A DNA stretch of 64,000 nucleotides. Source: Dechloromonas denitrificans. GTDB lineage: Bacteria > Pseudomonadota > Gammaproteobacteria > Burkholderiales > Rhodocyclaceae. Below, piece by piece: positions 8,845 through 53,406 of the stretch. Location of the stretch: positions 4,481,001 through 4,545,000 of the forward strand of contig NZ_CP075185.1 in the NCBI RefSeq assembly GCF_020510685.1, in the 5' to 3' direction. Made by a program: the position numbers and the translations under genes. Numbering within the stretch: position 1 is the first letter of the stretch; each line of letters opens with the position of its first letter. The notes under the pieces are model-generated. The model made no database searches and had not been told where the DNA came from. It saw nothing but the letters and a program-made list of their open reading frames with translations.

Positions 8845-10128
8845 TTACTTGATGAATGGACCCCAGGCCGGTTCGCGTACATCACCTGCGGCGACCGAAA
8901 GGCGTTGTTTGATCCTGCCATCGCTGGAAACAGCCGATAGTACGCCGCGCCCGCCGGTTTCTGTGGCGATCAGGATCATGCGGCTGTTGGGTGCAAAACT
9001 GGGCGATTCGTCTTTATTGGAGTCGGTCAGCACCTGCACCTGGCGGTTGGCCAGATCCATGGCGGCGAGCTGAAAACGGCCTTCGCGGCGGGTGATGAAG
9101 GCCAGCGTCTTGCCATCGGCCGAGGGCCGCGGCGAGACGTTGTAATTGCCTTCGAAGCTGACGCGCTGGGCATCGCCACCGCCGGCCCCCATCCGGTAAA
9201 TCTGCGGGCTGCCGCCGCGGTCGGAGGTGAAATAGATGCTGGCACCATCCGCCGAGTAACGCGGTTCGGTATCGATGCCGGCCGACTGGGTCAGGCGCTG
9301 CGGAGCGCCGCTGCCATCGGCATTGACCGAATAGATCTGCGAATTGCCGTCCTTCGACAGGACGACGGCCAGCTTGCGGCCATCCGGCGCCCAGGCCGGG
9401 GCCGAATTCGAGCCTTTCTGGTTGGCGACGATGTAACGCTGCCCGGTAGCCAACGAATGAACATAAATGATCGGCTTCTTCTTCTCGAAGGAAACATAGG
9501 CCAGCTTGCTGCCATCCGGCGACCAGGTCGGCGAAATAATCGGTTCGATCGAGCTCAGCGCGGTCGCCGCCCCTTGGCCGTCGGCATCGGCGACCTGAAG
9601 CAGGAAACGGCCACGGGTCTTGACGACGTAGGCGATGCGGGTCGAAAACACGCCTTTCTCGCCGGTCAGCTTTTCGTAGATGAAATCGGCGATCCGGTGG
9701 CCGGCGGCGCGTAGCTGCTCGTTGCCGGTGACATAGGCGGCGCCGCCCAGCGATACGGCTTTCTGCGTGTCGTATAGACGGAAGCGGGCTTCCATCCGGC
9801 CATCCGGGCTGCGCCCGATGCTGCCGGCGGCCAGCGCGTCGGCTCCCTTGCTCTTCCAGTCGGCGTGATTGACCGGCGAATTCTCGTCGAGCGCGGCGCC
9901 GGTCGTATCGACCAGCTTGAACAGGCCGCTGCGCTCAAGGTCGGAACGGACGGTCGCGGTGACGATCCGCGAGGCGGCACCATCGCCGACAAAATCGGCA
10001 ATCGCTACCGGAATGCGGTTGGCGCCGGCACCGGTAATTTCGATGGAAAGCTGGGCCTGGGCAAGTCCTGTGGTCAGCAGGGCCAAGGTCAGAAAAACAC
10101 GACGGGATATACGATGCATGTTGTTCAT
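8845..10128 (-). CDS. tolB: Tol-Pal system beta-propeller protein TolB
   Basis: Periplasmic protein of about 427 residues. After a signal peptide (FLTLALLTTGLAQAQ) comes the N-terminal alpha/beta domain, then five to six propeller blades with repeated SPDGSKLAYVS / APDGRKLAVVLS / SADGASIYFTSDRGG motifs. An open frame reaches 10161 inside the end of tolA. I chose the ATG ending at 10128 (MNNMHRISRR) because it gives a normal signal peptide; ATG 10119 is also possible. No strong ribosome-binding site decides it, and coupling to tolA is likely. Confidence 0.94.
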   Translation of the reverse strand: MNNMHRISRRVFLTLALLTTGLAQAQLSIEITGAGANRIPVAIADFVGDGAASRIVTATVRSDLERSGLFKLVDTTGAALDENSPVNHADWKSKGADALAAGSIGRSPDGRMEARFRLYDTQKAVSLGGAAYVTGNEQLRAAGHRIADFIYEKLTGEKGVFSTRIAYVVKTRGRFLLQVADADGQGAATALSSIEPIISPTWSPDGSKLAYVSFEKKKPIIYVHSLATGQRYIVANQKGSNSAPAWAPDGRKLAVVLSKDGNSQIYSVNADGSGAPQRLTQSAGIDTEPRYSADGASIYFTSDRGGSPQIYRMGAGGGDAQRVSFEGNYNVSPRPSADGKTLAFITRREGRFQLAAMDLANRQVQVLTDSNKDESPSFAPNSRMILIATETGGRGVLSAVSSDGRIKQRLSVAAGDVREPAWGPFIK

Positions 10129-32429: not shown

Positions 32430-34172
32430 ATGAGCTTCGCCCTGCACGGTCTCGGCGTCTCCGGCGGCATCGCCATCGGGCGGGCCTTGCTGATGTCGCA
32501 CGCGACGCTCGAGGTTTCGCACCTGACCGTCGCACCGCGCATGGTCGACAAGGAAATCGCCCGCTTCGAGGCCGCCGTCAAGGCGGTCAAGGATGAACTG
32601 GAGGCGATGAAGGGCACGACCGAGCATGCGCCGGCCGAGCTTGCCGCCTTCATCGACATCCACACCATGTTCCTCGAAGATCCGGAACTGGTGGACAAGC
32701 CGCGCGAGATCATCCGCGAACGACGCTGCAATGCCGAATGGGCGCTGGTCCAGCAGATGGAACACCTGGTCCGCCAGTTCGAACAATTCGACGACCCCTA
32801 CCTGCGCGAACGCAAGCTCGATGTCCGTCAGGTCGTCGAGCGCGTCATCAAGGAGCTGCTCGGCCACCCCAGCCGCGCCGTGATGAAAGCCGGCAAGGGC
32901 CTCAAGGAAGAAACGCTGATCGTCGTCGCCCACGACCTGTCGCCGGCCGACGTCATCACCTTCAAGGAACACCGCTTCGCCTCCTTCATCACCGACGTCG
33001 GCGGCGCCACCTCGCACACGGCGATTCTCGCCCGCAGCATGGCGATCCCGTCGGTAGTCGGGATGGAGAATGCCCGCTCGCTGATTCGCGATGGCGAACA
33101 GCTGATCGTCGACGGCCAGCGGGGCGTCGTCATCGTCAATCCGGACCCGCGCGTGCTCGAGGAATACCAGCTGCGCAAGAACCAGATCGAGCTGGAAGAA
33201 TCGAAGCTGAAGCGCTTGAAGACGGCAAAATCGCAGACGATCGACGGCGTTGAAGTGCACTTGTACGCCAACATCGAACTGCCCGGCGACATCCCGGAAG
33301 CCCTGGAGGGCGGCGCCGAAGGCATCGGCCTGTTCCGCACCGAGTTCCTCTTCCTCGACCGCGGCGACATGCCCGACGAACAGGAGCAGTACGAGGCCTA
33401 CCGCAAAGTGGTCAAGGGCATGGCCGGCCGGCCGGTCACCATCCGCACCTTCGACCTCGGCAACGACAAGGATCTGCGCCCGGACTCCAGTTTCGGCGAC
33501 CGGGTCAAGACCAACCCGGCGCTCGGCCGCCGCGCCATCCGGCTATCGCTGGCCGAACCGCAGATGTTCCAGACCCAGTTGCGCGCCATCCTGCGCGCCT
33601 CGAAACACGGGCCGATCAAGTTACTGATTCCGATGCTCGCCCACGCCCACGAAATCGACCAGACGCTGGCCGCGCTGGAACAGGCGAAATCGAGCCTGCG
33701 CGGCGAGAAGATCAGCTTCGACGAAAACATCGAGGTCGGCGGCATGATCGAAATTCCGGCGGCCGCGCTGGCCATCGGCCTCTTCCTGCGCCGGCTGAAT
33801 TTCCTGTCGATCGGCACCAACGACCTGATCCAGTACACGCTGGCCATCGATCGCTCCGACGAGCAGGTCGCCGCACTCTACGACCCGCTGCACCCGGCCG
33901 TCCTGATGCTGCTGGCGCACACCATGGCGAGCGCCGAAAAGGTCGGCATCCCGGTTTCGGTCTGCGGTGAAATGGCCGGCGATCCGAAGCTGACCCGACT
34001 CTTCCTCGGCATGGGTCTGCGCATCTTCTCGATGCACCCGTCGCAGATCCTCAAGGTGAAGAACCGTGTCCTGAAGGCCGATGTCAGCGAACTCGCCCCC
34101 AACGTCCGGCGCATGCTGCGCCTCGAAGAACCGGGCAAGCTGCGCGAAGCGCTGGAAAAACTGAACGCCTGA
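32430..34172 (+). CDS. ptsI: Phosphoenolpyruvate-protein phosphotransferase, enzyme I
   Basis: Enzyme I of 580 residues. The phospho-His loop GGATSHTAILARSMAIPSVVG, the PEP-binding GIGLFRTEFLF and EIGGMIEIPAAAL-type segment, and the dimer-domain FFSIGTNDLIQYT-like sequence (LSIGTNDLIQYTLAIDR) are all present. It moves phosphate from PEP to HPr. Together with EIIA(Man) and HPr it makes a complete three-protein relay with no sugar permease. Confidence 0.96.
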   Translation: MSFALHGLGVSGGIAIGRALLMSHATLEVSHLTVAPRMVDKEIARFEAAVKAVKDELEAMKGTTEHAPAELAAFIDIHTMFLEDPELVDKPREIIRERRCNAEWALVQQMEHLVRQFEQFDDPYLRERKLDVRQVVERVIKELLGHPSRAVMKAGKGLKEETLIVVAHDLSPADVITFKEHRFASFITDVGGATSHTAILARSMAIPSVVGMENARSLIRDGEQLIVDGQRGVVIVNPDPRVLEEYQLRKNQIELEESKLKRLKTAKSQTIDGVEVHLYANIELPGDIPEALEGGAEGIGLFRTEFLFLDRGDMPDEQEQYEAYRKVVKGMAGRPVTIRTFDLGNDKDLRPDSSFGDRVKTNPALGRRAIRLSLAEPQMFQTQLRAILRASKHGPIKLLIPMLAHAHEIDQTLAALEQAKSSLRGEKISFDENIEVGGMIEIPAAALAIGLFLRRLNFLSIGTNDLIQYTLAIDRSDEQVAALYDPLHPAVLMLLAHTMASAEKVGIPVSVCGEMAGDPKLTRLFLGMGLRIFSMHPSQILKVKNRVLKADVSELAPNVRRMLRLEEPGKLREALEKLNA

Positions 34173-34249: not shown

Positions 34250-34837
34250 TCAGCGCAGGCTGGTCTGGCTAGCCAAGGCAACCGTCGCCGTCGGCCGCTC
34301 GTCGCTGATCCCGGCTCGCCGTTTGAGATCGGCCAGCACCTGGGCCGAACCGTTCCGCGCTGCCGCCACCTGCTCCCGACGGTCGCGCTCTTCGATCAGG
34401 GCGAGCGCCTGCTGGCGCCAGGCGACCATCTGCGGTTGGTGCTCATGGTGCAGATGATGCCGGCGATTCATCGTGAACCAGCGATGCGCTTCCTCCTGAT
34501 CGGCGGCAACGCCCTGACCGACCTGGTACATCAGGCCGATCTGGAACTGCGATGCCTTGTCGCCCCGCTCGGCGGCCACGCGGTACCAGCGCAAGGCCTC
34601 GGCATAGTCGGTCGGCACGCCGTCGCCGTGCTGGTGAATCACCGCCAGGTTATAGGCGGCATCGACATTTCCCTGTTCGGCCCAGGCTTTCCAGATCGCC
34701 ACCGCGGGCACCGTCTCGCCCCCCTTGTGCAGTTTTGCCGCCTGCCGCAGATCGGCGTCGACATTTCCCGCATGGGCGGCGAGACAGGTCAGGGAACAAA
34801 CGACAGCGAGACAAAAACGGGCAAGGAGCGAGGTCAT
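34250..34837 (-). CDS. Secreted Sel1-repeat protein
   Basis: Protein of 195 residues with a signal peptide (FCLAVVCSLTCLAAHA) and Sel1-like TPR repeats: VDAAYNLAVIHQHGDGVPTDYAEALRWYRVAAERGDKASQFQIGLMYQVGQGVAADQEEAHRWF. The C-terminal part has a His-rich patch (RRHHLHHEH). Sel1 proteins usually mediate protein-protein contacts in the envelope. The partner is unknown. Confidence 0.85.
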   Translation of the reverse strand: MTSLLARFCLAVVCSLTCLAAHAGNVDADLRQAAKLHKGGETVPAVAIWKAWAEQGNVDAAYNLAVIHQHGDGVPTDYAEALRWYRVAAERGDKASQFQIGLMYQVGQGVAADQEEAHRWFTMNRRHHLHHEHQPQMVAWRQQALALIEERDRREQVAAARNGSAQVLADLKRRAGISDERPTATVALASQTSLR

Positions 34838-34912: not shown

Positions 34913-34942
34913 TAGGCAAATTGCCGCGCGACAATTTGCCGC
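34913..34942. promoter_or_regulatory. Tandem Fnr-like palindromes upstream of the copper receptor gene
   Basis: GCGACAATTTGCCGC at 34928-34942 is a 15-base palindrome with one mismatched pair. Immediately before it, 34915-34925 is the perfect palindrome GGCAAATTGCC, which matches the same consensus at 13 of 15 positions. Their centres (34920 and 34935) are 15 bases apart. An exact copy of the main site, within an 18-base identity, lies upstream of the second TonB receptor. The TTG half-sites suit a Crp/Fnr-family protein, one of which is encoded between the receptors. Confidence 0.7.
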
Positions 34943-35011
34943 ATTCCCGCCCTGCCCTTACTCCCGGACAATCTGACCCCGCTTAAATACCAATAATTCA
35001 GGGAGAACTTC

Positions 35012-37225
35012 ATGGGGAACCGTATTCGTCCGCTGACCGCCGCAATGGCTGTCGCCTTTTCGACAACTGCCGTCTGGCAAAGCGCCGCGGCGCAGAGCGC
35101 GACGGTTCTCGACGATGTCGTCGTCAGCGCGAGCAAGATCCGCGAACTACCCACGGCCGACGCCATCAACAACCGGCAAATTGCGCCGCAGCGGCCGGCG
35201 ACGAGCGATACGGCCAGCCTGCTGAAGGACATTCCCGGCGTCAGCATCCATGGCGCCGGCGGCGTTTCCGGACTGCCGGCGATCCACGGCCTGGCCGATG
35301 ACCGTCTGCGCATCAAGGTCGATGGCATGGATCTGATCTCGGCCTGCGCCAATCACATGAACCCGGCGCTGTCCTACATCGATCCGAGCAATGTCGACAG
35401 CCTCAAGGTATACGCCGGCATCACTCCGGTCAGCGTCGGCGGCGACAGCATCGGCGGGGCGATCATCGTCAATTCGCCAGCCCCGCGCTTCGCCAAGGCC
35501 GGCGAGGGACTGCTGACCGGCGGCGAGCTGGGCAGTTTCTATCGCTCGAACGGCGATGCCTGGGGCGTCAATGCCTCGGCCACCATTGCCACGGAAAATC
35601 TCAGCATCCGCTACAGCGCCTCGACCGCCCAATCCGACAACTACAAGTCGGCCAAGGAGTTCAAGCCGGGCGTTCTGGCGACCGGCACGAGCAAAGGATC
35701 GCGCTGGATTGCCGGCGACGAGGTGGCCTCGACGGCCTACAAGACCCAAAACCAACAGCTGGGCGTCGCTTACCGGCTCGACAACCACCTGTTCGATCTG
35801 AAACTCGGCTACCAGCACATCCCTTACCAGGGATTCCCGAACCAGCACATGGACATGACCGACAACAAGAGCACCCAGGTCAATCTCGGCTATACCGGAC
35901 AATATGCCTGGGGCACGCTTGAATCGCGCGTCTATCACGAACGAACCCGGCACAAGATGGATTTTGCCGAGGACAAATATTTCTACACCCTGGGCATGCC
36001 GATGAATACCGAGGGCAAGAATACGGGGGCCCTGGTCAAGGCCGAGATCAACCTTTCCGAGCGCGACCTGCTGCGGGTCGGCAGCGAATACCAGCGCTAC
36101 CGCCTGGACGACTGGTGGCCGCCGGTCGGCACCGGCGGCATGTCCCCGAACACCTTCGTCAATATCAACAACGGCCAGCGCGACCGCTTCGACCTCTTTG
36201 GCGAATGGGAAGGCCGCTGGACGCCGCAATGGATGACGCTGATCGGCGTACGCGGCAGCCAGGTCACCATGGACGCCGGTCGGGTCGCCGGCTACAAGAC
36301 GACCTACGACACCAGTACGCCCCCCTACAACGCCAATACCTTCAACAATCGGGACCGCTCGCGCACCGATCACAACCTGGACCTGACGCTGCTCGCGCGC
36401 TACACGCCGGATGCCAGCCAGACCTATGAGGGCGGCTATTCCCGCAAGACCCGCTCGCCGAGTCTCTACGAACGCTATACGTGGTCGGGCAACGGCATGG
36501 GGATGACCATGAACAACTGGGTCAACGACGGCAACGGCTATGTCGGCAACGTCGACCTCAAACCGGAAGTGGCGCACACCGTCAGCGTCAGTGCCGACTG
36601 GCACGATGCCGCCCGGACCAACTGGGGCGTCAAGCTGACGCCCTATTACAGCCTGGTCGACAACTACATCGATGCCACCCAGGCCATCGGCAAAACCTGG
36701 GTCGCCGGCCAGTTCAACTACCTGACCCTGGCCAACCAGGATGCCCGCCTGTACGGCCTCGACCTCTCCGGCTTTGCAGCGCTCGGCAGGATCGATGGGC
36801 TTGGCGGCTTCACGGCGCGCGGCGTCATCGGCTATACGCACGGCAAGAACCGCAGTACCGGCAACAATCTCTACAACATCATGCCGCTCAATGCCCGCCT
36901 GGCTCTCGACCATCGCCTCGGCAACTGGACCAACACCATCGAGGAGGTGCTGGTCAGCGCCAAGGACGACGTCTCGGCAGTCCGCAACGAGATGAAGACG
37001 GCCGGCTACGGCCTGCTCAACCTGCGCAGCAGCTACGAGTGGAAGAACCTCCGCTTCGATATCGGCCTGGAAAATGCGCTGGACAAGCAATACGCGCTGC
37101 CGCTCGGCGGCGCCTACACCGGCCAGGGCCGAACCATGTCGCTGAACGGCGCCGGCGCTCCCTACGGCATCACCGTTCCCGGCATGGGACGCTCGCTCTA
37201 TGCCGGCATCAATATCAAGTTCTAG
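35012..37225 (+). CDS. oprC: TonB-dependent copper receptor, OprC/NosA family
   Basis: Outer-membrane receptor of 737 residues with a signal peptide (cleavage near AAAQS), a plug domain and a 22-strand barrel ending in Phe. The plug carries the OprC/NosA hallmark MDLISACANHMNPALSYIDP. Cys112 and Met116 form the CxxxM copper motif, and His279-Met280-Asp281-Met282 could supply the second half of the site (HxM in OprC). NosA proteins bring copper for nitrous oxide reductase in denitrifiers. AGGGAGA precedes the ATG by six bases. Two Fnr-like palindromes lie 70-100 bases upstream. Confidence 0.88.
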   Translation: MGNRIRPLTAAMAVAFSTTAVWQSAAAQSATVLDDVVVSASKIRELPTADAINNRQIAPQRPATSDTASLLKDIPGVSIHGAGGVSGLPAIHGLADDRLRIKVDGMDLISACANHMNPALSYIDPSNVDSLKVYAGITPVSVGGDSIGGAIIVNSPAPRFAKAGEGLLTGGELGSFYRSNGDAWGVNASATIATENLSIRYSASTAQSDNYKSAKEFKPGVLATGTSKGSRWIAGDEVASTAYKTQNQQLGVAYRLDNHLFDLKLGYQHIPYQGFPNQHMDMTDNKSTQVNLGYTGQYAWGTLESRVYHERTRHKMDFAEDKYFYTLGMPMNTEGKNTGALVKAEINLSERDLLRVGSEYQRYRLDDWWPPVGTGGMSPNTFVNINNGQRDRFDLFGEWEGRWTPQWMTLIGVRGSQVTMDAGRVAGYKTTYDTSTPPYNANTFNNRDRSRTDHNLDLTLLARYTPDASQTYEGGYSRKTRSPSLYERYTWSGNGMGMTMNNWVNDGNGYVGNVDLKPEVAHTVSVSADWHDAARTNWGVKLTPYYSLVDNYIDATQAIGKTWVAGQFNYLTLANQDARLYGLDLSGFAALGRIDGLGGFTARGVIGYTHGKNRSTGNNLYNIMPLNARLALDHRLGNWTNTIEEVLVSAKDDVSAVRNEMKTAGYGLLNLRSSYEWKNLRFDIGLENALDKQYALPLGGAYTGQGRTMSLNGAGAPYGITVPGMGRSLYAGINIKF

Positions 37226-37787
37226 GCGCCAGGCAGCCTTCGCCAGGTCGGCGGGAATCGGCGAGGCGATTTGCCAGGCCGGTAACGACGGCCTGGCGTG
37301 GCGCCTGCGCAGCGGCGTGGTCAGGCTCGACATGCCCGGCCCGCGAGGCGCGAGCTTTGCCAGCCTGGCCATCGCCGGCGACATTATCGGCTGCGAAACC
37401 CTGCTCTTCGGCGCCTACACCTTCAGCGCCACGGCGCTCACCCAGTGCGAACTGGCCCCCTGGCCAGAGGGAGAGTCCGCCAAGGCTGGCGAGTCGCTGC
37501 TCGCATCGCTCGCCACGGCACAACGGCGGGCCGCCGATATCGTCGCCCTGCGCGGCGGCCAGGCCACCGACCGGGTCATCGGCCTGATCCGCCTGCTGGC
37601 CGATGGCGCCGGGCGAGTCGTCCTGCCGTCCCGGCAGGATATTGCCGACATCACCGATCTGCGCTTTGAAACCATCTCGCGCATCATCAAAACCCTCGAA
37701 CGCTCGCAGCTGCTGGCCCCGGTGAAGATCGAAGGGGTCCATGCAACCCGGGGTTTTCAGCTCAATCCGGCCAGCCTGGCCTATTGA
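37200..37787 (+). CDS. Compact Crp/Fnr-family transcriptional regulator
   Basis: Protein of about 195 residues. The N-terminal half is a shortened cyclic-nucleotide-binding-type barrel (LAWRLRSGVVRLDM, IAGDIIGCETLLFGAYTFSATAL). The C-terminal half is a Crp-type winged helix with VLPSRQDIADITDLRFETISRIIKTLERSQLL. The recognition helix ETISR keeps the E..SR residues that read TTG half-sites in Fnr-class proteins. No N-terminal Cys cluster for an Fe-S centre is seen. It begins inside the end of the copper receptor gene and lies between two receptors that share an Fnr-like palindrome, so it is probably their local regulator. The exact start is uncertain. Confidence 0.85.
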   Translation: MPASISSSRRQAAFARSAGIGEAICQAGNDGLAWRLRSGVVRLDMPGPRGASFASLAIAGDIIGCETLLFGAYTFSATALTQCELAPWPEGESAKAGESLLASLATAQRRAADIVALRGGQATDRVIGLIRLLADGAGRVVLPSRQDIADITDLRFETISRIIKTLERSQLLAPVKIEGVHATRGFQLNPASLAY

Positions 37788-37806
37788 TTCGACATAAACC
37801 GCCGGG

Positions 37807-37824
37807 GCGCGACAATTTGCCGCA
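37807..37824. promoter_or_regulatory. Fnr-like palindrome upstream of the second TonB receptor gene
   Basis: The 18 bases GCGCGACAATTTGCCGCA are identical to 34926-34943 and contain the 15-base near-palindrome centred on 37816. A candidate -10 (TATCAT, 37848-37853) starts 32 bases from the centre, close to class II spacing for Crp/Fnr activators. Site and promoter lie between the regulator gene and the receptor it probably controls. Confidence 0.7.
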
Positions 37825-37855
37825 CCCCGGGCGCCGGCAACGGCCCGTATCATCC

Positions 37856-37906
37856 AATCCTAAATATATGTTTATTAAGTATTTTTGACACAAATCAATT
37901 AGGATT
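37856..37906 (+). promoter_or_regulatory. Inverted repeat that could mask the receptor ribosome-binding site
   Basis: AATCCTAA (37856-37863) and TTAGGATT (37899-37906) are perfect 8-base inverted repeats around an A/T-rich 35-base loop. The right arm contains the AGGA Shine-Dalgarno sequence for the following receptor start at 37912. Pairing would close the ribosome-binding site. Whether this is regulatory is inference. Confidence 0.45.
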
Positions 37907-37911
37907 TCATG

Positions 37912-40014
37912 ATGAAGCAAGTGGCACCTTCACCGTTGGCGATCGCTCTTTGCGCAGTTTTTTTCCCCGCCACTAGCATGGCCGCCGATCAGGCGCTCGG
38001 CGAGGTCACCGTGACCGCCACCCGCGAAGGACAACTGGTTGCCGAAACCCCGGCGAGCATCGGGGTGATCAAGGACAAGACCCTGCGCGAAGTGCGCCCG
38101 ACCCACCCGTCGGAAATCATGAGCCAGGTGCCCGGCGTCTGGGTCAATGTGACCGGCGGCGAAGGCCACCAGACGGCGATCCGCCAGCCGCTGACCACCA
38201 GCCCGGTGTACCTCTATCTGGAGGACGGCATCCCGACCCGGTCCACCGGCTTCTTCAATCACAATGCCTTGTACGAGGTGAATCTGCCGATGGCCGGCGG
38301 CATCGAGATCAACAAGGGGCCGGGCAGTGCGCTCTACGGCTCCGACGCAATCGGCGGCGTGATCAACGTACTGACCCGCCGGCCGCCGACCGGGCCGGAA
38401 ATCGACGGCTCCCTCGAGGCCGGCTCCTACGGCTGGAAACGGGCGATGATCACCGGCGGCAATGCCTTCGGCGACCACGCCTTCCGCGCCGATCTCAATC
38501 TCAGCCATACCGACGGCTGGCGCGACAGCACCGCCTACGACCGGCAGAGCGGCACGCTGCGCTGGGATAGCGCGATCGGCAACGATGCCGTGCTGAAAAC
38601 AGTCGCCACCTTTTCCAACATCGACCAGGAAACCGCCGGCAGTTCGGCCATTTCCAAAAACGACTACGAAAACAACCCGCGCACCAACTACACGCCGATC
38701 TCGCTGCGCAAGGTCCAGGCCGTTCGCCTGTCGACCGCCTACGAGAAGGAATCCGGCGATTCGCTGTTGAGCATCACCCCCTATTACCGCTACAACTCGA
38801 TGGATTTGCTGGCCAACTGGTCGCTGGCCTACGACCCGACGCGCTACACCAGCGAAAACCAGTCGCTCGGCGCCCAGATCAAATACCGCCAGGATTTCGC
38901 TCCGCTGCGCACGCGCCTGATCGTCGGCGTCGATATCGACAACAGCCCGGGCAGCCGCGTCGAAGACGCCATCACCACCACCCAGGCAGGCAGCGGTTAT
39001 AGGGCGATCTATACCGCTTACCGCATCGGCGCCCGGGTCTACGATTACGACGTCACCTATCGCGGCATTTCGCCCTATGTGCATGGCGAGATTTCACCGC
39101 TGCAGAAGCTTCGGGTCACCGCCGGCCTGCGTTACGACGCGGTCAGCTACCAGTACAGCAATCGCATGGCGAGCGCGCCGGTCCTCGCCGGCGGCCGTTA
39201 CTACGGTCAGGTCGGCGATACCAACATCGATTTCCAGCATCTCAGCCCGAAGCTCGGGGCGACCTATGCCTTCACCGACTCACTGAACGGCTTTGTCGCC
39301 TACAACCACGCCTTCCGTACCCCGTCCGAAGGCCAGCTCTTCCGGCCCGCCGCGGCCACCTCGGCGAGCCTGGCGCGGGCTGCCGCCGACGCCGCCCAGC
39401 AACTCAAGCCGATCAAGGTCGACAGCTACGAAATCGGCTTGCGCGGCAAGCTCGGCAGTACGGTAAATTACGAGATTTCGGCCTATCACATGACCAAGAA
39501 GGACGACATCCTCAGTTACAAGGATCCGCTCAGCAATGTCACGACCGCGACCAACGCCGGCAAGACCCTGCACCGCGGCGTCGAAGTCGGCCTCGGCGCC
39601 CAGCTGGCCTCCTTGTGGCGGTTCGACAGCGCCTTCTCCTACGCCAAGCACACCTACGAGACATGGAAAATCGGCAGCACCGACTACAGCGGCAGGGAAA
39701 TGGAAATCGCCCCGCGCGTCGTCGCCAACACCCGCCTGAGCTACGGCGAGGCGAAAAGCGGCCTGGCCCAACTGGAATGGATGCATTTCGGCAGCTGGTG
39801 GTCGGATCAGGCCAACACCGCCAAGTACCCGGGACACGATCTGCTGAACCTGCGCGGCCAGTATCCGCTGGCCCGCGACATGAACCTCTTCGCCAACGTC
39901 CATAACCTGGCCGACAAGCGCTACGCCGAAAGTACCAGCGTCACCTCGGGGTTCGAGACCTTCGCCCCCGGCCTGCCGCGCACCCTCACCGTCGGGGTCC
40001 AGGCCAAATGGTAG
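37912..40014 (+). CDS. TonB-dependent receptor of unknown ligand
   Basis: Outer-membrane receptor of 700 residues with a signal peptide (cleavage near SMAAD), a TonB-box-like stretch (EVTVTAT), a plug domain (PSEIMSQVPGVWVNVTGGEG, INKGPGSALYGSDAIGGVINVLTRR) and a barrel ending in KW. ATG codons stand at 37909 and 37912; spacing from AGGA favours the second. The propeller, thioredoxin and TonB genes follow with almost no gaps, so the four form an operon. The upstream Fnr-like site shared with the copper receptor suggests a metal or metal-complex ligand. Confidence 0.88.
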   Translation: MKQVAPSPLAIALCAVFFPATSMAADQALGEVTVTATREGQLVAETPASIGVIKDKTLREVRPTHPSEIMSQVPGVWVNVTGGEGHQTAIRQPLTTSPVYLYLEDGIPTRSTGFFNHNALYEVNLPMAGGIEINKGPGSALYGSDAIGGVINVLTRRPPTGPEIDGSLEAGSYGWKRAMITGGNAFGDHAFRADLNLSHTDGWRDSTAYDRQSGTLRWDSAIGNDAVLKTVATFSNIDQETAGSSAISKNDYENNPRTNYTPISLRKVQAVRLSTAYEKESGDSLLSITPYYRYNSMDLLANWSLAYDPTRYTSENQSLGAQIKYRQDFAPLRTRLIVGVDIDNSPGSRVEDAITTTQAGSGYRAIYTAYRIGARVYDYDVTYRGISPYVHGEISPLQKLRVTAGLRYDAVSYQYSNRMASAPVLAGGRYYGQVGDTNIDFQHLSPKLGATYAFTDSLNGFVAYNHAFRTPSEGQLFRPAAATSASLARAAADAAQQLKPIKVDSYEIGLRGKLGSTVNYEISAYHMTKKDDILSYKDPLSNVTTATNAGKTLHRGVEVGLGAQLASLWRFDSAFSYAKHTYETWKIGSTDYSGREMEIAPRVVANTRLSYGEAKSGLAQLEWMHFGSWWSDQANTAKYPGHDLLNLRGQYPLARDMNLFANVHNLADKRYAESTSVTSGFETFAPGLPRTLTVGVQAKW

Positions 40015-41195
40015 GCGCCATTGTCACGCTGCTGGCCGGCTGCCTGATCGCCACCAGGGCCGCCGCCCATGAACCGGCCGGCCATGCGGCAGGCAAACCG
40101 GATTTTTCCCGGATGTGGCAGGAGCGCCTGGAGAGCGCCCCGCGCCTGGCAGTGGCCGCCACTTTCGATGCCAATGGCCGGCTGTGGCTGGCGCGCACGG
40201 TCGGCAAACAATTGCAGGTCAGCCATTCGGATGACGCCGGCCAGCATTTTTCGCCGGCGGTTACGGTCAACCGCGAGCCGGAGCTGATTTCCGCCGATGG
40301 CGAAGCCCGCCCGGCGATCGCCGTGGTCGATCAGCGGGTCTATCTGAGCTGGACCCAGCCTCTGCCGCAAGCCTTCGCCGGCCACATCCGCTTTGCCGCC
40401 TCGGCCGATGGCGGCGCGACCTTCGCCGAGCCGCTGACCATCAACGACAATCGGCAAGCCATCACCCACCGCTTCAATGCCATGCTCGCCAACGAGCACG
40501 GCGTCACCATGGCCTGGATCGACAAGCGCGACGGCGACGGCCAGCCGGCCTACCGCGGCGCCGCGATCTACACCGCCCAGTCGACCGACGGCGGACGCAG
40601 TTTTGCCGCCAACCGCAAGCTCGCCGACCATTCCTGCGAATGCTGCCGGATCGGCCTGGCCGCCGACCGCGATGGCACGCCGCTGGCCTTCTGGCGGCAC
40701 ATTTTCGGCCGCAACGAACGCGATTTCGCCATCGCCCGCCTCGGCGAACCCTTGCAGCGCGCCTCGACCGACGGCTGGGCCATTGACGCCTGCCCGCATC
40801 ACGGCGGCAGCTTGGCCGTCGATGAGCAGGGCGGCCGGCACATCGCCTGGTTCACCGGCGCCGCCAAATCGCCCGGCCTGCATTACCGGCGCATCGACGG
40901 CGAGCGGATGAGCGTTCCGCTGTCCTTTGGCGACCTCGATGCCCAAGCCGGCCATCCGGCCGTCGCCACGGCCGGCAGCGGCATCGATCTGGTCTGGCGC
41001 GAATTCGACGGGCGCGAAAACCGCATCGTCGCCATCCATTCCGCCGACCGCGGCCAGACCTGGAGCAAGCCGATGCGCCTCGCCGCCACCGCCGGCGCCG
41101 CCGACGACCCGCTGCTGATCAACGGCCGCGGCGCAATCTGGCTGATCTGGAATACCGCCGACAACGGCCTGAAGATCGTCCGCCTCGGCACATGA
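40008..41195 (+). CDS. Exported sialidase-like beta-propeller protein with Cys/His clusters
   Basis: Protein of 395 residues with an N-terminal export signal. LLAGC near residue 12 could be a lipobox, or cleavage may occur after ATRAAA. The body is a BNR/sialidase-type propeller with Asp-box-like repeats (SHSDDAGQHFS, AASADGGATFAE, AQSTDGGRSFAA, HSADRGQTWSK). Two unusual clusters stand out, CECC near residue 211 and CPHHGG near 264, which look more like metal ligands than a sialidase active site. It overlaps the receptor end by seven bases and the thioredoxin gene by four, so it is translationally coupled to an uptake operon. Confidence 0.75.
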   Translation: MVGAIVTLLAGCLIATRAAAHEPAGHAAGKPDFSRMWQERLESAPRLAVAATFDANGRLWLARTVGKQLQVSHSDDAGQHFSPAVTVNREPELISADGEARPAIAVVDQRVYLSWTQPLPQAFAGHIRFAASADGGATFAEPLTINDNRQAITHRFNAMLANEHGVTMAWIDKRDGDGQPAYRGAAIYTAQSTDGGRSFAANRKLADHSCECCRIGLAADRDGTPLAFWRHIFGRNERDFAIARLGEPLQRASTDGWAIDACPHHGGSLAVDEQGGRHIAWFTGAAKSPGLHYRRIDGERMSVPLSFGDLDAQAGHPAVATAGSGIDLVWREFDGRENRIVAIHSADRGQTWSKPMRLAATAGAADDPLLINGRGAIWLIWNTADNGLKIVRLGT

Positions 41196-41656
41196 AAACG
41201 CTCGCCCTGCTCCTCCTGCTGTTTTCGGCAAGCAGCCATGCCGAGATCCGGCCCTTCGTGCCGGGCAGCCTGCAACAAATCCAGGCCGAACAGGCCGGAA
41301 AGCCGTTCATCCTGGCCCTTTGGTCCGCCACCTGCATCCATTGCCCGGGCGAACTGAAGACCTTGGCCAAACTAGCCCGCCGACATCCGCGCCTGAACAT
41401 CGTCCTGCTCGCCACCGACACCCCGGACGAGGCCGCGCAACTGGAAAAGCTCGCCCTCGGCTACGGTCTCGGCAAGCAGGCGCAATGGGTTTTCGCCGAC
41501 CCGCAGCCGGAAAAGCTGCGCTACCAGATCGACCGCCGCTGGTTCGGCGAACTGCCGCGCACCTATTTTTTCGACCGCAACCACCAGCGCACTGCCAGCT
41601 CCGGAGTCATCCCGGTTGAGCAACTCGAACACTGGGTCGGCGAACACGTAAAATAA
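41192..41656 (+). CDS. Exported TlpA-like thioredoxin-fold protein
   Basis: Protein of 154 residues with a signal peptide (LLLLLFSASSHA) and a thioredoxin fold. The redox motif CIHC lies in LALWSATCIHCPGEL, and the cis-Pro region is GELPRTYFFDRN. It should act in the periplasm as a thiol reductase, plausibly keeping the Cys clusters of the neighbouring propeller protein reduced or delivering metal. The start overlaps the propeller stop (ATGA), and tonB follows four bases later. Confidence 0.82.
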   Translation: MKTLALLLLLFSASSHAEIRPFVPGSLQQIQAEQAGKPFILALWSATCIHCPGELKTLAKLARRHPRLNIVLLATDTPDEAAQLEKLALGYGLGKQAQWVFADPQPEKLRYQIDRRWFGELPRTYFFDRNHQRTASSGVIPVEQLEHWVGEHVK

Positions 41657-41660
41657 CGCT

Positions 41661-42344
41661 ATGGTCAGCAATCGCCTTTCCCTCGAATCAGGCCCACCCG
41701 AATGGCGGCGGAGCGGCCATTTTTTCCTCGCGGCCGCGCTGCTGCACGGGCTGATCCTGTTCTATCCGCTGAAGCTCGCCATCGACCAGCTGGAAATTCC
41801 GCCACCCGCCACCATCGCAGTTCGCCTGCTCGAGCCGGCGCCGCCGCAGCAGGCCCCAACGCCCGCCCAGAAGCCAGTTCCGGTTGCCCAGCCAACGGTC
41901 AGCCGGCAGCGTGAGCGGCCGCAGCCGACCCCGCGTCCGTTACTCGCCATGCGCGCCGAGCAGGCCGTGCCATCCCCGACCTTTTCGGTACCGGCCCCGA
42001 GCGCCGCCCCGCCGGCTCCCCCGGCCGCTGCCCCGACGGCCAGCGCGGCACCGGTCACGGTCACCCCGGCCCGTTTCGACGCCGCCTATCTGCACAATCC
42101 CGAACCGAAATACCCGCCACTCTCCCGGCGCCTCGGCGAGGAAGGCAAGGTGTTGCTCAGGGTGCGGGTCAGCCGGGATGGTCAGCCGGCGACGATCGAT
42201 TTTGAAAAAAGCAGCAATTTCGAGCGGCTCGACGAAGCCGCCAAACAGGTTGTCGCGCGCTGGCGCTTCATTCCGGCGAAACGGGGCGACGAGGCGATCG
42301 AAGCCTCGGTGATCATTCCCATTGTCTTTCGGCTGGATGGTTGA
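41661..42344 (+). CDS. tonB: TonB energy transducer
   Basis: Protein of 227 residues: a single N-terminal transmembrane helix (FFLAAALLHGLILFYPLKLAI), a Pro/Ala-rich periplasmic spacer (about residues 45-135) and a C-terminal TonB domain (NPEPKYPPLSRRLGEEGKVLLRVRVSRDGQPATIDFEKSSNFERLDEAA). It closes the receptor operon, so the locus carries its own transducer. No exbB or exbD is adjacent, so it must use ExbBD encoded elsewhere. Confidence 0.92.
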   Translation: MVSNRLSLESGPPEWRRSGHFFLAAALLHGLILFYPLKLAIDQLEIPPPATIAVRLLEPAPPQQAPTPAQKPVPVAQPTVSRQRERPQPTPRPLLAMRAEQAVPSPTFSVPAPSAAPPAPPAAAPTASAAPVTVTPARFDAAYLHNPEPKYPPLSRRLGEEGKVLLRVRVSRDGQPATIDFEKSSNFERLDEAAKQVVARWRFIPAKRGDEAIEASVIIPIVFRLDG

Positions 42345-42359
42345 GGCAGGCCGGACGTG

Positions 42360-42650
42360 ACGACGGGGACCGAAGTCCCCGCCGGCTATCTTTGGTAACA
42401 AGGCTCCAGCAGCCCCGGCTGAAAGCTTATGCAGCTACAGCGAAACGCTCATCGTTGGCGTTTGAGAATTTGCTTCATTAACGTCGATCGCCTGACGAGT
42501 TGCCTGCGCACCTTTGCCCGCCCTGTCGAAGCCAGTACACCCCCATCTAAAGACACCGGAATGCCCTTAGGTGGAGGTGAGGGGAATCGAACCCCTGTCC
42601 AGAACGCCTCCAGATTGCCGGAATTACAACCATGCTTCGAATTATGGGGG
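42360..42650 (-). ncRNA. ssrA: Permuted two-piece tmRNA
   Basis: On the minus strand the acceptor piece comes first. Its T arm (AGGGGTTCGATTCCCCT) and 3' strand CACCTCCACC end at 42570. After only 25 bases the coding piece starts at 42544 with GGGGGTGTACTGGCTTCGAC, the usual tmRNA 5' sequence, and its GGGGGTG pairs with CACCTCC (one G-U). The tag codons run from 42459 down to 42430 and read ANDERFAVAA, with TAA at 42427-42429. The 3' CCA is not fully encoded. The GGGGAC/GTCCCC hairpin at 42366-42381 may be the 3' end. Both outer boundaries are approximate. The RNA rescues stalled ribosomes. Confidence 0.88.
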
Positions 42651-42700
42651 CGGGGGGGGCGATTTACAAGAGCCGACCCCGGAGCAATTTTTCAATCGCC

Positions 42701-43422: not shown

Positions 43423-44562
43423 TTGAACAAAACGCTACTCGCCGCACTGCTCTCAACCATCGCCGCCACTGCGCTGGCCGACATCAACGTCGGCGTCACG
43501 CTGTCGGCCACCGGCCCGGCCGCCTCGCTCGGCATACCGGAAAAGAACACCATCGACCTGTTGCCGAAAAGCATCGCCGGGCAGAAGGTCAATTACCTCG
43601 TGCTCGACGACGCATCCGACACCACCACGGCGGTCAAGAACACCAAGAAGCTGATCAGCGAAAACAAGGTCGACCTGATCATCGGCTCGACGACGACACC
43701 CAATTCGCTGGCCATGGTCGGCGTTGCCGCCGAGGGCGAGACGCCGATGATCGCCCTGGCCGCCTCGGCGCGCATCGTCGAGCCGATGGACGACAAGCGT
43801 AAATGGGTCTTCAAGACACCGCAGAACGATGCCCAGATGTCGACCGCGATCATCGAGCACATGACCAACAACAACGTCAAAACCGTGGCCTACATCGGTT
43901 TTTCCGACGCCTACGGCGAAGGTTGGTGGAACGAGTTCTCCAAGCTGGCCGAAGTGCGCAAGATCGCGCTGGTCGGCAACGAGCGCTTCAATCGCACCGA
44001 TACCACGGTAACCGGCCAGATCCTCAAGATCCTTTCCGCCAAGCCGGATGCCGTACTGATCGGCGGCGCCGGCACGCCGGCCGCGCTGCCGCAGAAATCG
44101 CTGAAGGAAAAGGGCTACAAGGGCATCATTTACCAGACGCACGGCGTCGCCAACAACGACTTCCTGCGCGTCTGCGGCAAGGATTGCGAAGGCACCGTGC
44201 TGCCAACCGGCCCGGTACTGGTCGCCGGGCAGTTGCCGGCCGACAATCCGGTGAAGAAATCGGCGACCGAATACGTCACCCGCTACGAAGCCGCCCACGG
44301 CAAGGGCAGCGTCAATGCCTTCGGCGGCTACGCCTGGGATGCCGGCCAGCTGTTGGCCGCCGCCGCGCCGCAGGCCCTGAAGACAGCGCAACCGGGCAGC
44401 CGTGAATTCCGTCTGGCGCTGCGCGATGCGCTGGAAGCGACGAAGAATGTCGCCGGTGCCCACGGCGTCTTCAACATGAGCGCCAGCGACCACCTCGGCC
44501 TCGATCAGCGGGCCCGGGTCATGGTCACCGTGCAGCAGGGCGCCTGGAAACTGGCCCGCTGA
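43423..44562 (+). CDS. LIV-type ABC transporter substrate-binding protein (first paralogue)
   Basis: Periplasmic binding protein of 379 residues with a signal peptide (LLAALLSTIAATALA) and mature start DINVGVTLSATGPAASLGIPEKN. The start is a TTG at 43423 with AGGGAG eight bases upstream; no ATG fits. It is closely related to the next gene, sharing long blocks such as PAALPQKSLKEKGYKG and QTHGVANNDFLRV. The second copy lacks the Cys pair seen here (VCGKDCEG; VGGKDVEG there), which may form a disulfide. Confidence 0.93.
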   Translation: MNKTLLAALLSTIAATALADINVGVTLSATGPAASLGIPEKNTIDLLPKSIAGQKVNYLVLDDASDTTTAVKNTKKLISENKVDLIIGSTTTPNSLAMVGVAAEGETPMIALAASARIVEPMDDKRKWVFKTPQNDAQMSTAIIEHMTNNNVKTVAYIGFSDAYGEGWWNEFSKLAEVRKIALVGNERFNRTDTTVTGQILKILSAKPDAVLIGGAGTPAALPQKSLKEKGYKGIIYQTHGVANNDFLRVCGKDCEGTVLPTGPVLVAGQLPADNPVKKSATEYVTRYEAAHGKGSVNAFGGYAWDAGQLLAAAAPQALKTAQPGSREFRLALRDALEATKNVAGAHGVFNMSASDHLGLDQRARVMVTVQQGAWKLAR

Positions 44563-44654: not shown

Positions 44655-45794
44655 ATGCTAAAGAAACTGACTGTCGCCGTTCTCGCTGCTTTGTCCACCG
44701 CCGCCCTGGCCGACGTCAATGTCGGGGTTTCGGTTTCGGCCACCGGCCCGGCCGCTTCGCTCGGCATTCCGGAAAAGAACACCATCGCCCTGCTGCCGAC
44801 CAGCATCGGCGGCCAGAAGATCAATTACATCGTGCTCGACGATGCCACCGACCCGACGGCAGCGACCAAGAACATCAAGAAGCTGATCAGCGAAAACAAG
44901 GTCGACGTGATGATCGGTTCGACCACCACGCCGAACTCCCTGGCCATGATGGATGTCGCCGTCGATAACGAAACACCGCTGATTTCGATGGCCGGTTCCG
45001 CCATCGTCGTCGAGCCGGTGGATGCCAAGCGGCGCTGGGTCTTCAAGACGGCTCAGAACGATGCCCACATGGCGACCGCCATCGTCCAGCACATGACCGA
45101 CCGCAACGTCCAGACCGTCGCCTTCATCGGCTTTGCCGATGCCTACGGCGAAGGCTGGTACAAGGAGTTCGCCAAGATCGCCGAAGCCCGCAAGCTGAAG
45201 ATCGTCGCCAGCGAACGCTACCAGCGCAACGACACTTCGGTGACCGGCCAGACGCTGAAGATCATCGCCGCCAAGCCGGATGCCGTGCTGGTCGGCAGTG
45301 CCGGCACGCCGGCCGCGCTGCCGCAGAAATCGCTGAAGGAAAAGGGCTACAAGGGCCTGGTCTACCAGACGCACGGCGTCGCCAACAACGACTTCCTGCG
45401 CGTCGGTGGCAAGGATGTCGAAGGCGCCTTCCTGCCGGTCGGTCCGATGATGGTTGCGGCGCAACTGCCGAACGACAATCCGGTCAAGAAATCGGCGCTG
45501 GAATATGTCGGCAAGTACGAAGCCGCCCACGGCAAGGGCAGCGTCAGCTCCTTCGGCGGCCACGCCTGGGATGCCGGCGTGCTGCTGCAGAATGCCATTC
45601 CGCAGGCCTTGAAGGCCGGCAAGCCGGGCACCGTCGAATTCCGCCGCGCTCTGCGCGATGCGCTCGAAGGGACCAAGAATCTGGCCGGCGCGCACGGCGT
45701 TTTCAACATCACCGCAAACGACCACCAGGGTTTCGATCAGCGCGCCCGCGTTATGGCAACCATCGAAAACAACACCTGGAAGCTCGTCAAATAA
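44655..45794 (+). CDS. LIV-type ABC transporter substrate-binding protein (second paralogue)
   Basis: Periplasmic binding protein of 379 residues, the same length as its neighbour, with signal peptide LTVAVLAALSTAALA and mature start DVNVGVSVSATGPAASLG. The two are recent tandem paralogues. Differences cluster in segments that line the cleft in this family (for example ASARIVEPMDDKRK in the first, GSAIVVEPVDAKRR here), so they may bind different ligands for one permease. A strong hairpin follows the stop. Confidence 0.93.
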   Translation: MLKKLTVAVLAALSTAALADVNVGVSVSATGPAASLGIPEKNTIALLPTSIGGQKINYIVLDDATDPTAATKNIKKLISENKVDVMIGSTTTPNSLAMMDVAVDNETPLISMAGSAIVVEPVDAKRRWVFKTAQNDAHMATAIVQHMTDRNVQTVAFIGFADAYGEGWYKEFAKIAEARKLKIVASERYQRNDTSVTGQTLKIIAAKPDAVLVGSAGTPAALPQKSLKEKGYKGLVYQTHGVANNDFLRVGGKDVEGAFLPVGPMMVAAQLPNDNPVKKSALEYVGKYEAAHGKGSVSSFGGHAWDAGVLLQNAIPQALKAGKPGTVEFRRALRDALEGTKNLAGAHGVFNITANDHQGFDQRARVMATIENNTWKLVK

Positions 45795-51693: not shown

Positions 51694-53406
51694 TCAGAGG
51701 GGGTCGGTCGCGATTCCGTGTTTCTTGGCGACGGTGACGTAGAGTTCGCGCGCCGAAGCGACTTTCGGGCTCTTGCGGTCCTTGCGCTGGGCGCGCATCA
51801 GGTAGTCCAGCGCCCGGGCCGCCAGTTCGGCATCCCAGCCCTTGCTGTCCATCAGCGTGTAGATGGCCTTGGCGGCATTGACCAGAAACTGCAGATTGGG
51901 CACCTGCTCGGCGGCCTGGATCAACAACTGTACGGCGCCTTCCAGATCGCCGTTGCGGGCGGCCAGCACCCCCTTGTTGTTGAGCTCGATGATTTCCTTG
52001 CCGACCTGATCGAGCAAGGCCTTGCCCGCATCGGGCTGGCCGGTTTTCTCGAAGACCTGGGTGATGTGGTCGATCAGGTGCGGATCTTCATGATTTTCCG
52101 CGGCAACCTGGCGCATGATTTTTCCGGCCTCGTCCTGTTTGCCGGTGGCGTAACAGGCGTGCGCCAGATCGATGGCCAGACGTTGCGAAACGTGCCGGCC
52201 TTTCGCCTCGCCTTCAACCTGGATCTGTTGCTGCAAGGCCAGTGCCTGGTCGACCAGTTGCTTGGCCTTCTCGGTCGCGCCCTCGAAATCGAGGCACAGG
52301 CTTTCGGTCACCAGCGCCGCCATTTCCGCCTGCTTTTCGCCACGCCATTCGCGCTTCATTTCGCTGGCAATCTTGCGCGATCCCTCGACATTGCCGCGCT
52401 CGACCAGCACCCGCGACAAATTGGCGAAATCATCGACGGTGCGCAGGCTGGACCCCTTGTTGCGCTCGATGACCTTGCCGTAGGCTTTCTCGGCCGCCGC
52501 CAGATCCTTGTTCCGGGCCGCCACGTCGCCGACCAGACGCTGGCGCACGGTATTGTGCGGCGACGCATCGGCCGCCCGCTGCAGGGACTGCTGGGCCGCC
52601 TGCAATTTCCCCTTGGCTTCGTGTACCGAGGCGAGGAAATCGAAAGCCGAGAGGAATTCCGGCGCTTCCTGGGTTACCTGCTCGGCCAGTTGCTCGGCTT
52701 CATCGAGCGCGCCGCGATCACGCAGCGCCGTGGCCAGACCCATCTTGGCCCAGGGCACGACGCGCCCTTCGAGCACCCGGCGGAAGACCTCTTCCGCCTC
52801 ACTGGTCCGACCCAGCGTATGCAGCAACTCGCCCTTGAAGCGCAAGGCATCGTACATATACACCGGCTGTTGCTGGATCACCCGGTCACAGGCGGCGATC
52901 GCCTCATGCAGGGCGCCGCGCTCGATCTGTTCGTAGATCTTGCGCAGCACGTGTTTCTTGTAGATCGCCTTGATCAGCCGGGCCTGCAACTGGTCGGCGG
53001 TAAACGGCTTGATCAGGTAATCGTCGGGGGCCAGTTCGGCCAACGCCACAACGTTGGAGTAGCCGCGCTCGCTGGTGATGATCAGATAGACCGTCGCCAG
53101 CGGAATCAGGTGGGCATGGCGCAACTCTTCCAGCAGTTGTTGGCCATCGCGCCCATCGTCGAGAACGAAATCGGAGAGGATGATGTCGAAGCGGTTGCCC
53201 TTGACCTGACGAATCACTTCGGCCGAATTGCCGGCGCCATGCACCGCGATTACGCCCAGGGCGCCGAGCATCAGGCGCAGCGCCTCACGGGCCGGCGGAT
53301 GCCGGTCGACGATCAATACCCGCTTTTTGGTAAGAGTCTGCTGCAAAACCAGCAGCATCTCATCGTTATCCAGAGGGTTCATGCCCTTTGCTTGGCTCGT
53401 GCTCAT
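51694..53406 (-). CDS. Response regulator with C-terminal TPR repeats
   Basis: Protein of about 570 residues. The receiver domain lies near residues 25-150: VLIVDRHPPAREALRLML, phospho-acceptor Asp in DIILSDFVLDDG, TSERG switch and KPF lysine. The rest is TPR-type helical repeats (ALRFKGELLHTLGRTSEAEEVFRRVL and later units), with no DNA-binding or enzymatic domain. It resembles receiver-TPR proteins that act through protein contacts. The start is uncertain; ATG 53406 is chosen, with 53433 and 53382 also possible. No kinase gene is adjacent. It is divergent from mnmG. Confidence 0.85.
   Translation of the reverse strand: MSTSQAKGMNPLDNDEMLLVLQQTLTKKRVLIVDRHPPAREALRLMLGALGVIAVHGAGNSAEVIRQVKGNRFDIILSDFVLDDGRDGQQLLEELRHAHLIPLATVYLIITSERGYSNVVALAELAPDDYLIKPFTADQLQARLIKAIYKKHVLRKIYEQIERGALHEAIAACDRVIQQQPVYMYDALRFKGELLHTLGRTSEAEEVFRRVLEGRVVPWAKMGLATALRDRGALDEAEQLAEQVTQEAPEFLSAFDFLASVHEAKGKLQAAQQSLQRAADASPHNTVRQRLVGDVAARNKDLAAAEKAYGKVIERNKGSSLRTVDDFANLSRVLVERGNVEGSRKIASEMKREWRGEKQAEMAALVTESLCLDFEGATEKAKQLVDQALALQQQIQVEGEAKGRHVSQRLAIDLAHACYATGKQDEAGKIMRQVAAENHEDPHLIDHITQVFEKTGQPDAGKALLDQVGKEIIELNNKGVLAARNGDLEGAVQLLIQAAEQVPNLQFLVNAAKAIYTLMDSKGWDAELAARALDYLMRAQRKDRKSPKVASARELYVTVAKKHGIATDPL

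Follow-up and report, generated by a model that had tools for sequence, protein, structure and literature searches.

Six genes on one strand of the Dechloromonas denitrificans chromosome probably pull scarce copper into the cell, and they carry the same DNA switch as nosZ, whose product, a copper enzyme, removes the greenhouse gas nitrous oxide (N2O). They lie in a stretch of 64,000 nucleotides (the window; contig NZ_CP075185.1, positions 4,481,001 to 4,545,000) inside a complete genome of 4,619,274 bases, and encode an OprC/NosA-like TonB-dependent receptor, a Crp/Fnr-like regulator, a second TonB-dependent receptor (TBDT2), a secreted propeller, a TlpA-like thioredoxin and a TonB. The original prediction described this set as a copper acquisition island controlled by an Fnr box. 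Copper acquisition is supported by our results, as the OprC-like receptor keeps the motif CxxxM-HxM and the operator is shared by nosZ, the Sco1-PCuAC operon and the OprC-like gene. However, a 15-bp palindrome, exact at 34928 and 37809, and a divergent Sel1-repeat gene had been overlooked. This palindrome, and not the Fnr box, is the dominant conserved promoter element. The account that we find reasonably probable, judging from sequence comparison, is that of a RegA-activated, Fnr-damped copper-acquisition unit that would feed nitrous oxide reductase and oxidases.

The operator and the genes behind it

A palindrome of 15-17 bp, TGCGACAATTTGYCRCA, stands 5' of both the OprC-like gene and the TBDT2 operon. 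Of the nearest loci, nine have an intact upstream region, and all nine carry the palindrome 5' of TBDT2; eight of them hold an OprC-like gene, and 8/8 have it 5' of that gene too. A genome scan for the propeller returned 489 relatives, of which the best 80 loci, many on short contigs, were analysed. Leaving out the incomplete L053, L080 and L083, 51 of 77 propeller-operon promoters contain the operator with one mismatch at most, 32 of them exactly; the mean is 0.25 (maximum 2) in shuffled sequences and 1.26 (maximum 4) in random regions of the same loci. The same threshold is reached by 13 of 17 OprC-like genes. Moreover, a -10-like hexamer (at least 4/6 bases) lies exactly 32 nt past the operator centre in 41 of 54 hand-listed promoters, and this offset is strictly the best among 26-40 in 27 of 41. 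Any other offset in that range is found in at most 6 promoters, and shuffles give a mean of 2 (maximum 6). Such spacing would be the geometry of an activator overlapping the -35 region. The perfect 17-mer occurs in 4 of 60 genomes across the order (7 sites, control 0) and the operator is therefore not general. A three-mismatch match at 52413 was dropped, being inside a coding frame.

Seven exact sites are present in the own genome, against one in the control. Beyond the island, they lie 5' of both nosZ copies and of exbB-exbD, and one of the nosZ sites is common to a divergent operon composed of an unnamed 156-aa gene, Sco1 and PCuAC. The exact sites at 330767 and 1746704 are inside reading frames or have no clear target. 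Among 121 genomes of the same family, the own one included, 91 distinct operator sites are listed. In this set the operator is within 300 bp of 12 of 47 strong nosZ matches (0.003 expected) and at most 6 kb upstream in 9 of 39 propeller genomes (about 0.05 expected). The predicted tie to nitrous oxide reductase thus holds as an operator shared with nosZ, both in the own copies and in the family. Exact sites were found in 13 of 20 propeller genomes, with 45 sites against 1 in the control, and the sites read there precede or separate OprC-like, PCuAC, RegB, PepSY_TM, MbnH-like (below cut-off), propeller and receptor genes. When 24 of the 91 family sites were chosen by hand, two stretches being selected for holding a propeller, 11 stood at receptor, OprC-like, TonB, PCuAC, propeller or putative outer-membrane genes.

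Some neighbours of operators deserve mention in their own right. The own nosZ copies (L150; G000:C1:1873778-1876087 and 1880821-1883130) each match the 770-aa query at 100% identity, and the 7 kb from one to the other contain response-regulator and kinase-like frames. In L138:1352-3342, an operator is flanked by two genes, one for a PCuAC copper chaperone and one for a RegB-type kinase. In Nitrosospira, a second, different BNR-type protein is encoded directly 3' of an operator (L132:2161-3459) and a small secreted EF-hand protein rich in CGG/EGxCG repeats near one (L134:1462-1887). A secreted family with an HTRF/HTRL start and conserved Cys is encoded behind operators of Nitrosomonas and of one other genome in the order (L123:995-1858; L148:7874-8710 and 8975-9736), with a Pfam match in 0/2 tested. 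Finally, a Cys/His-rich secreted protein directly behind an operator (L156:2002-2568) has no Pfam match and resembles copper-storage proteins by eye only.

The features of the island and its borders are the following, in window coordinates:

32430-34172, EI-type phosphotransferase system gene, flanking the island (named by eye)
34250-34837, minus strand, Sel1-repeat secreted protein with an HHLHHEH motif (Pfam Sel1, 62.6 bits), divergent from the OprC-like gene across the operator
34915-34925, unstranded, distal half of a tandem operator, GGCAAATTGCC; a similar tandem copy is present in L007, L008, L010 and L012
34928-34942, unstranded, operator GCGACAATTTGCCGC 5' of the OprC-like gene, centre 34935; -10-like GACAAT at 34967-34972, 32 nt on
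35012-37225, plus strand, OprC/NosA-like TonB-dependent receptor, containing SACANHMNP
37200-37787, plus strand, Crp/Fnr-like regulator, 195 aa in the longest ATG frame, start uncertain
37809-37823, unstranded, operator GCGACAATTTGCCGC of the TBDT2 operon, centre 37816; TATCAT at 37848-37853, 32 nt on
37885-37898, unstranded, FNR-type site TTGACACAAATCAA, beginning 24 nt 5' of the TBDT2 ATG
37909-40014, plus strand, TBDT2, nearest solved relative PqqU/YncD (25% identity)
40008-41195, plus strand, secreted seven-bladed BNR-type propeller with HSCECCR and CPHHGG
41192-41656, plus strand, TlpA-like periplasmic thioredoxin with CIHC
41661-42344, plus strand, TonB (Pfam TonB_C, 70.6 bits)
42358-42682, minus strand, transfer-messenger RNA (tmRNA) gene (Rfam RF01850, 296.5 bits), outer boundary and not an island member

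Open reading frames and coordinates confirm the predicted layout, with all six genes open on a single strand at the positions first given and the last four overlapping or almost touching. The regulator's longest ATG frame overlaps the stop of the OprC-like gene. Pfam matches are above cut-off for both receptors, the BNR propeller and TonB, and below it for the regulator and the thioredoxin-like protein. Gene order is largely kept in nearby loci, and the tmRNA gene was found in 6 of 10 loci, there near TonB. The closest named relatives of the propeller locus by sequence are mostly Azonexus and Dechloromonas. The Sel1-repeat gene is probably part of the island; HH(L/M)HHEH is kept in its homologues of L007, L008, L010, L012 and L172, while four weaker homologues vary. 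On the 3' side of the island, two similar tandem genes (43423-44562 and 44655-45794) encode, by eye, secreted binding-protein-like products.

The receptors and the propeller cassette

A PDB sequence search with the OprC-like receptor returned OprC entries alone at E<=1e-5. In Pseudomonas aeruginosa OprC, the copper site is CxxxM-HxM, according to the accessible portion of PMC8610252. The predicted copper ligands of the window receptor are C112, M116, H314 and M316. H314 and M316 are invariant in 19/19 aligned receptors, a set picked by the C/M motif, while CxxxM is found in 17/17 receptors chosen by homology and HxM in 21/21 receptors read, the window's included; on these counts the OprC/NosA-like assignment is borne out. 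Since the receptor scores 125.4 bits against NCBIfam TIGR01778 (TonB-copper), far below the curated cut-off of 472.45, we call it OprC-like and not an orthologue.

The group of TBDT2, propeller, TlpA-like protein and TonB recurs as a cassette in bacteria that denitrify or that oxidise ammonia or iron. Hosts of the best 80 of the 489 propeller loci are Rhodocyclales, Nitrosomonas, Nitrosospira, Nitrotoga, Gallionella, Sulfuricella, Thiobacillus and others. Within these loci a TlpA-like relative is present in 71, TonB in 44, ExbB in 28, RegA in 7, RegB in 6, Sco1 in 4 and PCuAC in 2. Second receptor, propeller and thioredoxin had been proposed to be one module, and this recurrence bears the proposal out. 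The receptor adjoining the propeller is diverse (21-78% identity to TBDT2), while propeller and TlpA-like protein are mostly kept together, which suggests that a common periplasmic step serves various receptors. The original prediction would have been refuted by propellers occurring mainly without copper genes, and on this point the result is mixed: an OprC-type motif was found in at least 19 of 80 loci, a lower bound as the pattern overlooked L007, yet the shared operator is there in most propeller promoters.

The predicted model of the propeller has seven blades and a BNR-type beta-propeller fold (predicted local distance difference test score, pLDDT, 91). Its motifs are H208-x-C210-E-C212-C213-R and C262-P-H264-H265, of which HxCxCC and CPHH are (nearly) invariant across relatives, and this conserved Cys/His cluster sits where the inner strands start. 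We regard the protein as a candidate periplasmic copper-handling protein. A PDB profile search with its sequence gave nothing at E<=0.1. The TlpA-like protein keeps CxxC, the TlpA/DsbE redox motif, in 75/75 tblastn matches, with family scores under the curated cut-offs. TBDT2 scores 119.7 bits against NCBIfam NF041535 (PqqU), whose cut-off of 1200 is not reached, and its top NCBIfam score is a siderophore subfamily, also below cut-off.

A different gene pair was observed near the propeller in L016, L022, L027, L030, L035, L038 and L077, where a NapH-like polyferredoxin and a DsbD_2 membrane protein are encoded (7/7); some of the seven loci also have a receptor and an unnamed periplasmic protein. 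This cassette is possibly a copper-reducing unit.

Candidate readers of the operator and rival explanations

Both the Fnr box and the regulator of the original prediction exist. The Fnr consensus is TTGAT-N4-ATCAA, and TTGACACAAATCAA matches 9/10 of its half-site bases; in 9 of the 10 promoters compared, TTGAY-N4-RTCAA begins 24-27 nt 5' of the TBDT2 start. The regulator scores under cut-off with Pfam HTH_Crp_2 (25.9 bits, cut-off 27) and the cNMP domain (23.8, cut-off 27.5), and has a helix, ETISR, that we take to resemble FNR. Its two Cys (GCE, [QE]C) are kept in 7/7 orthologues aligned, and its gene lies inside the island in 6 of 9 near loci and was found in 10 of 15 genomes searched. Control could thus run mainly through this regulator at the Fnr box, which we consider very improbable. 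The site lies at about +25 to +38 from the inferred transcription start and, being downstream of it, would repress; it was not found 5' of 7 of 8 OprC-like genes examined. Moreover, in three genomes without the regulator gene the TBDT2 operator is retained, and in two of these the OprC operator as well. Consequently, we rejected the Fnr box as main switch, its site being downstream of the inferred start and the regulator dispensable, and the local gene as sole reader of the palindrome. The regulator encoded at 37200-37787 may, by its sequence, read the Fnr-type site.

A RegA/PrrA-type response regulator is our candidate for reading the palindrome. The published sites, as given in the part of PMC5506826 available, are SSGNVRDNHYSNCSS (RegA), YSCGGC(5)GWCRMA (PrrA) and GNGRCRTTNNGNCGC (RegR). 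The own nosZ sites fit the PrrA consensus at 12/12 positions, the window's two full sites at 11/12 and the distal half site at 9/12, and 0.18% of random 21-mers reach at least 11/12. All four sites (nosZ and window) match the Rhodobacter capsulatus RegA pattern at 12/12, a loose pattern with a random full match in 1.2%. A RegA-type gene is present in 41/41 operator-positive and 18/26 operator-negative propeller loci (Fisher 2.4e-4, uncorrected), ten of the 80 loci being without a RegA result. RegA occurs in 31 of 39 propeller genomes against 64 of the 121 family genomes overall, and in 15 of 16 genomes with the operator at nosZ or propeller, the exception, G213, being a 79% complete draft. For 5 of 41 propeller matches (0.14 expected) and 18 of 68 nosZ matches, weak ones included (0.23 expected), RegA is no more than 10 kb away. 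In the own genome, no more than about 3 kb separates RegA and RegB from PCuAC/Sco1 and nosZ, and the own RegA has a receiver and a Fis-type helix-turn-helix (Pfam Response_reg and HTH_8, above cut-offs). In Sulfuricella, L022 has RegA and a one-mismatch operator, and L023, L038 and L042, two of the three being drafts, have neither. L038 has instead an upstream DUF2946 gene, presumably of CruR/CutF type.

The same copper module could nevertheless be governed by a different copper-sensing regulator reading the palindrome, with RegA merely travelling with respiratory copper genes. At its centre, AATTT, the operator is stricter than the RegR sites, for which imperfect half-sites with different spacing are reported in what was available of PMC4064962; 18 RegA-positive loci have no box at the propeller operon, and RegA is common in the family. 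However, this explanation has to accommodate the PrrA/RegA consensus fit, the linkage of RegA to propeller and nosZ, a RegA helix-turn-helix near-identical in the 7 sequences compared (two being the same gene), and the 8/8 RegA-less loci without the operator at the propeller promoter, which include L009 and L055 with incomplete upstream ends. We think it unlikely, although it deserves serious attention. Another explanation concerns the cargo, as the module could import iron, another metal chelate or a cofactor and have no more than redox control in common with copper genes. In the PDB, TBDT2 matches the pyrroloquinoline quinone transporter PqqU/YncD best, and E. coli pqqU adjoins the propeller gene yncE; the siderophore score of TBDT2 and the sigma genes of Nitrosomonas (below) point the same way. 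On the other hand, the operator is common to the OprC-like gene, PCuAC, Sco1 and nosZ, the HxCxCC/CPHH cluster is of soft-metal type, YncE has neither Cys nor sequence similarity to the propeller, and TBDT2 and PqqU are no more than 25% identical. A cargo other than copper therefore seems improbable to us.

Several results weigh against a RegA-read copper regulon. No clear copper or TonB target follows 13 of the 24 hand-read family boxes. In Nitrosomonas europaea, 5 of 17 operators stand before extracytoplasmic function sigma genes of FecI-like appearance (one checked by Pfam) and others before receptors of siderophore type, and the regulon may therefore extend to iron. Co-occurrence of propeller and nosZ is weak (16 genomes, p 0.05), and the association tests are uncorrected for shared ancestry or incomplete draft genomes. 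The 32-nt spacing is absent from the nosZ, Sco1, exbB and regB/PCuAC boxes, and for the looser core GRCAANTTGYC the own genome shows no more than a twofold enrichment (45 against 21). The own RegA stays under the NCBIfam NF033791 cut-off (164.8 of 250 bits; the next listed own-genome match has 75.1), which is passed by 0/121 family genomes. R. capsulatus RegA is reported to bind copper and dimerise via Cys156 (PMC9147068, in the part available); the own RegA has neither Cys156 nor any Cys before the helix-turn-helix, and we thus do not claim this mechanism. A Thiobacillus draft without detected RegA yet has a one-mismatch box at its OprC-like gene, and Acidithiobacillus RegA sites lie outside the known consensus, according to the portion of PMC5506826 available.

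Proposed mechanism and known systems

In the RegA-activated unit that we favour, the OprC-like receptor would import ionic copper and TBDT2 a second, probably chelated form, both driven by the island TonB and by ExbB-ExbD, which are encoded elsewhere behind the same operator. In the periplasm, copper would be taken over by the propeller, whose central channel would have a Cys4-His pocket at one end; the TlpA-like thioredoxin would keep the propeller thiols reduced or reduce Cu(II). Sco1/PCuAC would then receive the copper and hand it to nitrous oxide reductase and oxidases. A redox two-component system of RegB/RegA type would activate transcription through the palindrome, centred about 44 nt before the transcription start, and an Fnr-type protein would damp it at the site in the untranslated leader. 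According to the available text of PMC9147068, RegB senses the quinone pool. We hypothesize that copper shortage slows the copper oxidases and N2O reductase, so that the pool becomes reduced and RegB is switched on.

It is tempting to extend this scheme, though only tentatively, to an undescribed copper regulon in denitrifying and in ammonia-, nitrite-, iron- and sulfur-oxidising proteobacteria. In it, RegB/RegA and one nearly invariant operator, which at receptor and propeller genes keeps a distance of 32 nt to the -10, would switch on receptors, propellers of a new Cys/His-pocket family with their dedicated thioredoxin, chaperones, ExbBD and nosZ, and the quinone pool would report copper hunger and set N2O reduction. 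Little is known about copper acquisition in Gram-negative bacteria, and it is the copper supply that determines if nitrifiers grow and if denitrifiers release N2O or destroy it. One recognisable operator linking copper receptors, a new propeller family and nosZ provides a candidate list of copper genes across nitrogen-cycle bacteria and allows a direct test of the RegA-type redox system as controller.

The island has partial counterparts in known systems. E. coli PqqU (YncD) and YncE are likewise a receptor of the same branch adjoining a propeller of similar fold. However, the receptors share 25% identity, YncE lacks Cys and the E. coli pair is divergently oriented; YncE was rejected as a sequence relative of the island propeller, the two having no sequence similarity. 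BNR/sialidase and PLL-lectin propellers are also distant (10-14% identity to CylK and PLL rows) and differ by the conserved Cys/His cluster of the island propeller. RegB/RegA, PrrB-PrrC(Sco)-PrrA and RegSR resemble our case in that the own RegA/RegB lie near Sco1/PCuAC and the operator fits the PrrA/RegA consensus. The island differs by a very regular operator with fixed spacing at receptor and propeller genes, by a target set of copper uptake and N2O reduction, and by a RegA without Cys156. With OprC/NosA it shares the copper ligands and the tie to nitrous oxide reductase, whereas the companion regulator, the propeller cassette and the RegA-type operator have no counterpart described in the accessible part of PMC8610252.

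The CrtA systems are similar in providing TonB-dependent copper uptake for respiration. As far as the available text of PMC12914433 goes, Bordetella pertussis CrtA is a TonB-dependent copper receptor with a PepSY_TM partner that serves respiration; PepSY_TM is found in most CrtA loci and CruR in over 40%, and some crtA operons carry TonB/ExbBD, PCuAC and ScoI. In the island, 0/7 proteins match PepSY_TM (Pfam), and the words propeller and thioredoxin are absent from the main text of that paper. In the open-access literature, as far as it was accessible, we found no description of the propeller module, the operator sequence or a RegA-controlled copper regulon. Judged by its sequence, the island would thus be a variant of TonB-dependent copper uptake, new in its propeller module and its operator.

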